Assembly: GCF_029542785.1 (NCBI RefSeq)
Contig: NC_083370.1
Span: 868,001-932,000, forward strand
DNA length: 64,000 nucleotides
DNA from: Malassezia japonica
Lineage: Eukaryota; Basidiomycota; Malasseziomycetes; Malasseziales; Malasseziaceae
Reading direction: 5' to 3'
Position numbers and translations under genes: made by a program. Of this stretch, positions 4,099 through 7,468 are shown piece after piece; position 1 is the stretch's first letter; every line of letters begins with the position of its first letter. Below the pieces are notes generated by a model. That model had not been told where the DNA came from, did not search any database, and worked only from the letters and a program-made list of their open reading frames with translations.

Positions 4099-5148
4099 TT
4101 AGCAACATGCCGCTCTAAACCTGAAAAAGCTGCCCGCGAGCTGCGAGCCGTACGTCGCGGGGTCCTCGTCAAGGACCGAGGCGAGGTACATCACGACCTC
4201 GTGCGTGCGTGGCGCAAGCTGCGTACAGGTATTGTGGTCTGACTCGCTCAGCAGACGCAGGGGGTCGCATGCCAGGATCTGGGCCTCCAATTTCGGCTGC
4301 CGCTTGTTGATCGTACTGCATTAGGGATGGTGGGGGGATGGACGTACGTGGAAAACGAGACATAGACATTGGAGTGCTTGCGCTGCACCGCCATGATGCT
4401 CTCGGGACTTAGTGTGCAGCTATGCAGCACGAGATCTGCGTTAGGATACGCACGTACGAATTATCTTGAACGACGGCTCGGTGGCCATCTCTGCGAGAAA
4501 ATCGGTCGTCTGGCCCGCCGCACGCACGCTATGCATGCTCACGCTGCGACGCAGCTTGCATGCGATATCGACCTGCGCGCGCAGGACTGTGCGCTGGTGC
4601 GCAATCGGGGTCTGGAGCCGTGTGAGTTTGTGTGGCGCATCCGCGCGGGGATCCGGTAGCCGAAAGCTGCGGTCGAGGCCGACCTCGCCGAGGAGCGCAC
4701 CTGGAAACTCTTCGAGGTATGCCTCTACCTCGGCGAGTGCCTCGCGTAGTGGCCTCGGCGTGGGCAGGGCGTCATAGAGCGCGCACATCTCGGCGTCGCC
4801 TTCGCCAAAGAGCGCCGTGTAGTGCGCTCTCTTTTCCGGCGCGGGGTCCTCGAGAGAGAGAGTATGCGAATACCAAGGATGGAATCCTGCATCAGAATGT
4901 CTACGCACCAAAGCAAGGCACGACGTTGTACAGCCCTTCTCGTGCGAGCCGCGCGACCCACGGCTGGTCGATCGAGTCGGTGGCCATGACGCAGATGCGA
5001 CACAGCTCGACACTTTTCAGCTCCCGGAGCCATTCATCCCAATCAGCCCCCGCCCGAAGCGCCTCGGTCGGATGGCAATGCGCTGCATAAGAGCGTCTAC
5101 GTACCCTGTGTTAGTCGCTCTACGCACGTCCACGAGCAGCTTCGTCAT
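4099..5148 (-). CDS. TatD-family metal-dependent hydrolase (Scn1/Cut9-interacting type), six exons
   Basis: Predicted 309 aa from complement(join(4099..4315, 4348..4435, 4458..4886, 4909..5082, 5105, 5128..5148)). TatD proteins are TIM-barrel hydrolases or nucleases binding two divalent metals. Motifs in order: VDAHCHPTE (first metal ligands), CFGFHPWYSH, LGEVGLDRSF, a segment IAHQRTVLRAQ, VLHSC, and RLLSESDHN near the end. The order and the HPWYSH motif resemble fission yeast Scn1. Introns are 22, 22, 22, 22 and 32 nt. Four junctions restore family motifs directly: D|A|HCHP, CFG|FHPW, KII|HLVLHSC, FST|TINK. The third exon boundary pair leaves an exon of one base, G at 5105. ATG 5146-5148 places the motif eight residues from the N-terminus, as in homologues. 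A last intron beyond the chosen stop is conceivable but not needed. Confidence 0.85.
5105..5105 (-). other. Putative one-nucleotide exon between two 22-nt introns
   Basis: On the minus strand, a first intron (5106..5127, GTGCGT donor, CTAAC branch, ACAG end) and a second (5083..5104, GTACGT donor, CTTAT branch, GCAG end) are separated by a single G. Joining GAC + G + CGCATTGC gives Asp-Ala-His-Cys-His, the TatD signature. Removing only the first intron gives an immediate TAG; removing only the second, or treating the 45 nt as one intron, puts the HCH codons out of frame. The inference depends on ATG 5148 being the start. Confidence 0.7.
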
Positions 5149-5293: not shown

Positions 5294-7468
5294 ATGGATC
5301 AGTCTCTTATCAGTGCGTATTCCCTCTTCATGAGGATAGATGCTAACATGGCGATTCCTTTGGTGTGCAGAGCTCGTGAACAAGGTACGTGGGCCCGTGA
5401 GAGTGTTGCTAACCCCAGCTGCAAGATGCGTTCAACAACGTACGTTACCCACATCTAACAACAGGTCGGCATCCAGAATCCGATTGATCTGCCCCAGATC
5501 ACGGTGCTAGGAAGCCAATCGTCGGGTAAGAGTAGTGTGCTCGAGAACATTGTCGGCCGCGACTTTCTGCCCCGCGGTACGGGTATTGTGACGCGCCGTC
5601 CGCTTGTGCTCCAGCTAATTCACCGCATGCCCGAGTCGGGCGAGGTGCGCCCCCGTGGCGAAGCCGGCACGAACCCCGATGAGTGGGGCGAGTTCTTGCA
5701 CCTCGGCGGTGAGAAGTTTTACGACTTTGACAAGATTCGCGACGAGATTGTGCGCGACACGGAGCTCAAGACCGGCAAGAACGCCGGTATTAGTGCGCTT
5801 CCGATCAACCTGCGTATCTACAGTCCCCACGTCCTGACGCTCACCCTGGTCGACCTGCCCGGTCTGACCAAGAACCCTGTGGGTGACCAGCCGAAAGACA
5901 TTGAGCGCCAGATCCGCGACATGGTGCTCAAGTTCATCTCGAAGCCCAACGCGGTGATCCTGGCCGTGACTGCGGCGAACACCGACTTGGCGAACTCGGA
6001 TGGTCTGAAGCTTGCTGCCGAGGTCGACCCCGATGGCACGCGCACGGTCGGTGTTTTGACCAAGGTCGACCTGATGGACGCCGGCACGGATGTGGTGGAC
6101 ATTCTTGCTGGCCGTGTCATTCCTCTGCGTCTGGGCTATGTTCCTGTGGTGAACCGTGGCCAGCGCGACATTGATAACCGCAAGCGCGTCGCGGACGCGC
6201 TCGAGGCCGAGCGCAACTTCTTCGAGAGCCACCCCAGCTACCAGAGCAAGGCATCGTACTGCGGCACGCCCTTCCTTGCGCGTAAGCTGAACACGCTGCT
6301 GATGCACCACATCCGCAGCACCCTGCCCGACATTAAGGCCAAGATCCAGACGCAGCTGTCCAAGTTCCAGATGGAGCTGCAGGCGCTGGGCGGCACGAAT
6401 GGCGAGCAGAACAGTGCCGGTGCGGTGCTGTCGATCATCACCGACTTTTGCAACGAGTTCCGCACTGTGATCGACGGTAACAGCAACGACCTGACGGTGA
6501 GCGAGCTGGCAGGCGGTGCGCGCATCAGCTTTGTGTTCCACGAGCTCTTTAGCAACGGTGTCAAGGCTATTGATCCGTTTGACTCGGTGAAGGATGCTGA
6601 CATCCGTACCATTCTCTACAACTCGTCCGGCTCGTCCCCCGCGCTGTTTGTCGGAACGACGGCCTTTGAGGTGATTGTCAAGCAGCAGATCAAGCGCCTG
6701 GAGGACCCCAGCATCAAGTGCTGCTCGCTGGTCTACGACGAGCTGGTGCGTATCCTGTCGCAGCTGCTCGCCAAAAACGCTGCTTTCCGCCGATTCCCTG
6801 CGCTGCGCGAGCGTTTCAATTTGGTGGTGATCCAGTTCTTTAAGCGGTGCATGTCGCCCACCAACAAGCTCGTGTCGGACATCATTGCGGCCGAGTCGTG
6901 CTACCTGAACACAGGCCACCCCGACTTCCTCTCGGGGCACAAGGCGCTGGCGATTGTGAGCGAGCGCCTGAACGCCACGCAGCCGAGCTCCACCCCCTCG
7001 ACCGAGTACCGCAGCGGCCGCCCGATTCCCCCGGGCATGGCGAACAACAACAAGGATTTGGACGTGGACCTGAAAGAATCGGGCGGCTTTTTCGGCAGCT
7101 TCTTCCCCAACAAGAACAAGGCCGCGGCGAAAAAGGGCGCGATGGAGGCGCCGCCTCCGAGTCTCAAGGCCTCGGGCACGCTCACGGACCGCGAGGCGAT
7201 GGAGACGGACGTGATCAAGCTGCTGATTACCTCCTACTTCAACATTACTAAGCGGACGGTCATTGACATGATCCCCAAGGCGATCATGCTCAACCTCGTG
7301 AACCACGCCAAGGAGGCGATGCAGCGCGAGCTGCTCCAGGAGCTCTACCAGCCCGAAGTCCTCAAGGACCTCATGAAGGAGTCTGACCACGTTGTCGCGC
7401 GCCGCCGCGAGTGCGTCAAGATGATCGCTGCGCTGGAGACCGCTTCGGAGATTGTCGCGACCGTGTAG
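5294..7468 (+). CDS. VPS1: Vps1, dynamin-like GTPase of vacuolar/Golgi-endosomal sorting
   Basis: Predicted 685 aa from join(5294..5312, 5371..5384, 5419..5439, 5465..7468). The joined N-terminus, MDQSLIKLVNKLQDAF then [18 protein letters not shown], matches Vps1 rather than mitochondrial Dnm1. GTPase motifs: GSQSSGKSS (P-loop), DLPGLTKNP (G3), TKVDLMD (G4). The middle domain and a C-terminal GTPase effector domain ([20 protein letters not shown]) follow, separated by a short lysine- and alanine-rich insert. Length agrees with the family (about 690-700). Three introns (58, 34 and 25 nt) leave internal exons of only 14 and 21 nt. Next gene downstream is same strand, 105 bp away. Confidence 0.95.

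Follow-up and report, generated by a model that had tools for sequence, protein, structure and literature searches.

Introduction

Coding exons of a single nucleotide are rare but have been described in a few genes of plants as well as of fungi. In Arabidopsis, the one-nucleotide exon of APC11 was demonstrated by cDNA and constructs (PMC4674806), and such exons in APC11 and VPS55 are reported across land plants (PMC8831610). A fungal example has been on record since 2026 with CYP621A, for which 20 Fusarium orthologues and SRA reads for two species are presented (PMC12940212), and a placozoan mitochondrial cox1 gene is described as a further case. One described instance in Arabidopsis, as named by a sequence-only reading of the locus studied here, is thus an outdated count.

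The candidate analysed here is a single G in a TatD-family gene, located on a window of 64,000 nt (C1:868001-932000) from a Malassezia genome of 8.43 Mb in 9 contigs with a G+C content of about 63%. The encoded proteins have their nearest matches in Malassezia; for a cyclin, the best-scoring named records include M. brasiliensis with 82% and M. yamatoensis with 77%, next to hits of 99-100%. As far as the report on Fusarium CYP621A goes, both cases share a fungal gene, a G exon in an AGGGT context, a position in a conserved motif, a frame that depends on the exon and its omission from gene models. They differ in the host, an ascomycete as opposed to Malassezia, in the intronic stretch, which measures 139 nt in F. 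graminearum and 45 nt here, and in the material, as the 20 aligned orthologues and the reads for two species contrast with the DNA of one genome and one inferred relative in the present case. With plant APC11 and VPS55 it has in common a one-base coding exon that is absent from annotation, resulting in a shorter or different N-terminus (PMC4674806, PMC8831610), whereas the Arabidopsis APC11 exon lies in an intronic stretch of 422 nt, was proven by cDNA and constructs and belongs to a distant lineage (PMC4674806).

Searching the literature for Malassezia microexons returned only a Cryptococcus genome paper, and for Malassezia TatD nothing was returned. As far as the literature searched shows, the kind of exon is already known, and what is new is the Malassezia case and its compactness of 45 nt. 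The median single intron of Fusarium graminearum is given as 56 nt (PMC12940212) and is longer than the entire unit described here; two introns and an exon within 45 nt would illustrate the size to which a spliced unit can shrink.

Results and Discussion

Predicted gene structure

The gene is encoded on the minus strand and opens with an ATG at 5148, from which seven codons ending in GTGGAC are read (exon 1, MTKLLVD, 5128-5148; the relative P0010 starts MTARLVD). GTGGAC is followed by 22 nt (5127-5106), a G (5105), another 22 nt (5104-5083) and CGCATTGCCATCC. Intron 1 (5106-5127) reads GTGCGT..CTAAC-A-CAG and intron 2 (5083-5104) reads GTACGT..CTTAT-G-CAG, both being assigned from the sequence and from the intron-class scan and matrix described below. 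The G between them, candidate exon 2, opens the Ala8 codon GCG, and its surroundings, AG/G/GT at 5107-5103 on the minus strand, agree with the AG-N-GT pattern of a one-nucleotide exon. Exon 3 (4909-5082) begins with CG CAT TGC CAT, the remainder of Ala8 followed by HCH. Further downstream we assign intron 3 (22 nt, 4887-4908), exon 4 (4458-4886), intron 4 (22 nt, 4436-4457, with an 18-nt GTGCGT..CAG alternative inside), exon 5 (4348-4435), intron 5 (32 nt, 4316-4347) and exon 6 including the stop codon (4099-4315). Sequence, coordinates, lengths and product of the two GT-AG stretches around G 5105 turned out as the sequence-only reading had given them, and its statement that each stretch has its own donor, branch and CAG was borne out as well, both fitting the 22-nt intron model of the genome.

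Taking out the five introns while keeping the G yields MTKLLVDAHCHPTE..., a protein of 309 aa that matches Pfam TatD_DNase PF01026 with 86.7 bits (cut-off 27, E 2.1e-24). The N-terminal HxH motif of the predicted spliced protein is HCH, which we take to be metal-binding, and the human TATDN3 chain 2y1h aligns LVDCHCH at this motif. When intron 2 is kept, translation ends as MTKLLVDGT followed by a stop; keeping intron 1 leads to a stop after 27 codons, keeping both to a stop after 43 codons, i.e. at codon 44, and removing the whole 45 nt, by which the G is skipped, to a frame shift with a stop after 28 codons. The single G is required for the conserved frame together with the DAHCH motif. The earlier claim that only the removal of both stretches restores the protein holds for the exact peptide VDAHCHPTE, but not for the frame as such, since a 41-nt GT-AG intron is also in frame and yields VDVPHCHPTE instead.

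The 22-nt intron class of the genome

Introns were scanned on both strands of 264 kb, comprising the window and the preceding 200 kb (L002-L021), with the reversed sequence as control. The pattern GTRNGT..CTNAY..YAG occurs at exactly 22 nt in 133 sites as compared to 1 in the reversed control, and at 23 nt in 23 sites, again against 1; the modal intron length in the 264 kb is 22 nt, and the CTNAY branch is found one base ahead of YAG in 149 of the 165 candidates of 21-24 nt. A scoring matrix trained on 130 other introns, with both introns of the locus left out, assigned 23.6 bits to intron 1 and 21.8 bits to intron 2 (training median 25.9, minimum 18.4). None of the 2,600 GT..AG 22-mers of the reversed control reached either score, compared with 106 and 119 of 1,739 real-sequence 22-mers at 23.6 and 21.8 bits, respectively, the training introns being among them. 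Ranked among the training introns, intron 1 comes at the 19th and intron 2 at the 10th percentile; their scores are ordinary, if a little below average. By scan and matrix, both are credible as introns of this genome and belong to its 22-nt class; that both scores lie below the median counts against the two-intron reading.

Neighbouring same-strand candidate introns (18-60 nt) separated by 0-30 nt form four pairs in the 264 kb, with gaps of 1, 10, 21 and 27 nt, and introns 1 and 2 are the only pair with a gap below 10 nt. Judging from the control rate of 1 in 528,000 positions, about 0.0003 spurious 22-nt sites would be expected one base behind any of the 133 introns. Compactness and very short introns are described for haploid Malassezia genomes (PMC7426719), and the median intron is given as 30 nt in M. 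restricta and as 40 nt in M. arunalokei (PMC9241646). The 22-nt class of the 264 kb is shorter than these published medians, which, as far as the two values go, count against two introns of 22 nt.

Other very short exons were noticed in the same scan. A 10-nt exon, CGAACAGCAT, lies between introns of 24 nt and 22 nt (L014:9283-9338, equal to G000:C1:797283-797338, + strand) and connects two frames so that an acetyltransferase-like protein, ..VLVPYREQHVPTYHAWMQ.., is encoded, whose match to Pfam Acetyltransf_3 is weak (E 0.0085, below cut-off). The divergent neighbour of the TatD gene, presumably a dynamin-like gene, shows at window positions 5385-5464 on the plus strand an apparent 21-nt exon (5419-5439, encoding LQDAFNN) flanked by a 34-nt and a 25-nt intron, and a candidate 27-nt exon is located between introns of 21 nt and 22 nt at G000:C1:725234 on the minus strand (L007).

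Relatives and conservation of the motif

The window protein was aligned with 19 chosen relatives out of 119 protein hits, and 21 records, partly others, were inspected. P0009, P0013, P0015, P0016 and P0017, which start behind the motif, as well as the partial P0002 stayed out of the alignment. Against eight named Malassezia records the window TatD shows 49-54% identity. H9, C10 and H11 are invariant in all 20 rows, and 15 of them have D immediately ahead of xHCH, the exceptions being P0007, P0010, P0012, P0014 and P0021 (DVTHCH). Judging by their residues, P0007, P0010, P0012 and P0014 look like read-throughs or unspliced models.

We deduced codons and DNA layouts of P0010, P0012 and P0014 from their residues. 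P0010, with 65% identity to the window protein, reads MTARLVD-VRRLTDVGYVRHAYP-AHCHPTE, and its residues are compatible with exactly one one-nucleotide-exon layout with GTRYGT donors and CTNAY branches, 22 + 1 + 23, in which both introns would have the usual one-base branch-to-acceptor spacing. When the 15 residues were shuffled, 0 of 20,000 versions allowed a one-nucleotide-exon layout, and 3 of 20,000 did so with VR kept first. A single GT-AG intron giving DAHCH is not compatible with the P0010 residues. One 42-nt intron leading to VDVPHCH is, even with a GTRNGT donor, so P0010 alone does not rule against a rival of the 41-nt type. For P0012 as for P0014, the sole layout that fits is a 23-nt phase-0 intron at GAC/GCN, the same codon boundary; 2 and 4 of 20,000 shuffles fit as well, or 47 and 149 when TQ is kept. 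P0001 (on an 18-kb contig) and P0008 (on a 73-kb contig) are open over their full length and so seem to be intronless. For P0007 (Malassezia sp. CBS 17886), neither a single-intron nor a one-nucleotide-exon layout fits. In the comparison of orthologues suggested by the sequence-only reading, P0010 is compatible with 22 + 1 + 23 as well as with a single 42-nt intron, P0007 fits none of the layouts tested, and P0012 and P0014 point to a single intron. A protein search with residues 1-75 of P0010 matched P0010 alone, and a scan of viral contigs with P0010 gave no relative.

The TatD orthologues P0009, P0013, P0015, P0016 and P0017 start with MSTD, MSTG or MATD and have no N-terminal HCH. Among the 119 hits, no TatD record is named M. 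brasiliensis or M. yamatoensis, whose cyclins did match. The TatD gene may have been missed or truncated in the annotation of relatives, and the several records that start behind HCH suggest how such genes may escape annotation.

Splice routes and rival explanations

When the GT-AG excisions possible in the local transcript (5148-5021) were enumerated from a length of 16 nt upwards, no one-step excision led to DAHCH; two two-step routes did, and both consist of the two 22-nt introns, removed in either order. Two serial canonical introns around a one-nucleotide exon are the only canonical route to DAHCH. Single GC-AG or AT-AC introns reaching HCHPTE were considered and discarded, as they result in other N-termini, some with stops. 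The route enumeration and the compatible residues of P0010 support the interpretation as a one-nucleotide exon, and from the sequence we consider it very probable that G 5105 is such an exon between two 22-nt introns of the TatD gene.

What competes with it most is one 41-nt GT-AG intron, which we regard as improbable; it would run from a donor GTAGAG that lies four bases inside the first stretch to the acceptor of the second. Its product LVDVPHCHPTE is in frame with the remaining protein and resembles P0021 (Violaceomyces), given with one residue more, and we weighted it up because P0010 permits the matching 42-nt reading even with a consensus donor. Against it, G occupies +5 in 141 of the 142 consensus-ended 22-nt sites, GTAGAG being the donor of none, and a GTAGAG followed within 20-60 nt by the consensus end CTNAYNYAG is encountered only once in 264 kb, namely here. 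At 41 nt there are 0 GTRNGT sites with a strict 3' end and 1 with a looser end, equal to the control. Such an intron would moreover leave two class-typical 22-nt introns as a coincidence and insert a residue at a point where D immediately precedes xHCH in 15 of the 20 rows of the alignment. A 44-nt excision with non-canonical TG-AG or GT-CA boundaries, which we judge to be quite unlikely, is a rival of another kind, as its mRNA is identical to that of the two-intron model; junction reads GTGGAC-G-CGCATTGC are consequently necessary but insufficient. It requires a non-canonical boundary even though two canonical, class-typical introns are present, and P0010 too is compatible with such internal signals in their usual spacing.

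The remaining two explanations touch the sequence or the start of the gene. By frame logic, the product of a single intron would come into frame if the acceptor were followed by one more base, and the assembly might lack a base at the edge of exon 3 of a gene that really has one 45- or 46-nt intron. The sole 45-nt GTRNGT site with a strict 3' end in the 264 kb is this very composite, and at 46 nt there are 0, so no other intron would share the length of this one; P0010, which comes from a different species and assembly, likewise has a frame offset and no single GT-AG route to DAHCH. An assembly error is hardly to be expected. We give just as little credence to the possibility that the gene uses another first exon, or starts downstream at MATD, with the stretch being non-coding. 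The beginnings of P0009, P0015 and P0017 (named NCBI models) and P0013 with MSTD or MSTG, and of P0016 with MATD, speak for it, but it sacrifices the HCH that is present in all 20 alignment rows, which do not include these five records, and P0010 retains a near-identical first exon MTARLVD at equal distance.

Proposed splicing of the transcript

Under the preferred reading with two introns and a one-nucleotide exon, the gene would encode an Scn1-type TatD metallo-hydrolase whose pre-mRNA contains two minimal U2-type introns of 22 nt around a one-nucleotide exon that we infer to be constitutive. Each intron would be recognised alone by the spliceosome through intron definition, with donor and acceptor 22 nt apart. 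When a donor lies one base behind an acceptor, the geometry of the spliceosome requires sequential reactions. As donor 2 begins one base past acceptor 1, simultaneous processing would be impossible, and the introns would be removed one after the other in either order with the same mRNA as outcome; after the first removal, whichever it is, the second intron is still canonical. The D-A-H-C-H motif would be put together across the one-nucleotide exon. Since joining donor 1 to acceptor 2 and keeping one or both introns all fail, only the correct double removal would give the enzyme.

The sequence-only reading had offered stwintron-like or recursive splicing as alternatives. Stwintrons are likewise two U2 introns of a fungal gene that are consecutively removed at one place, with an internal intron splitting a splice element of the external one (PMC5639578). 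Here both introns are complete with a coding base between them, neither interrupts a splice element of the other, and both two-step routes are those of side-by-side introns; the reading as a stwintron was rejected. With recursive splicing via zero-length exons, as it is described, the locus would share stepwise removal and a donor behind an acceptor, directly so in the recursive case; recursive splicing is described mainly for long animal introns, whereas one base is retained here and both introns are minimal. Exon definition cannot account for the recognition of such an exon, so that intron definition on its own, as well as sequential splicing, can be cleanly tested at this locus.

Origin and possible intron sliding

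Among the relatives sampled, three states seem to occur at this codon: intronless, with a single phase-0 intron, or split. Introns 1 and 2 of the window gene are in phase 0 and phase 1, one base apart, and two relatives fit a single phase-0 intron (GAC/GCN). Sliding of introns by one base is debated (PMC7730772), and a stwintron-based mechanism for one-base shifts was put forward by Fekete et al. 2017, as cited there. The locus is possibly, though doubtfully, a standing intermediate of such sliding: loss of either intron would leave one at phase 0 or one slid by one base with the protein unchanged, and genomes with 22-nt introns would make intermediates of this type accessible. It offers a concrete candidate for the debated process.

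Nelson and Syed propose that a lost exon base may be rescued by a cryptic AGGGT exon within an intron (PMC12940212). The window has an AGGGT as well, but such a rescue would have required that the ancestral intron measured some 45 nt; alternatively, a second intron may have been inserted. A recent tandem duplication of one intron was rejected, given that 3 of the 9 free positions are identical between introns 1 and 2, close to the mean of 2.8 over 8,646 pairs. Introns 2 (5083-5104) and 3 (4887-4908) are rather alike, with 6 of 9 free positions matching, a value reached by 3.7% of the pairs.
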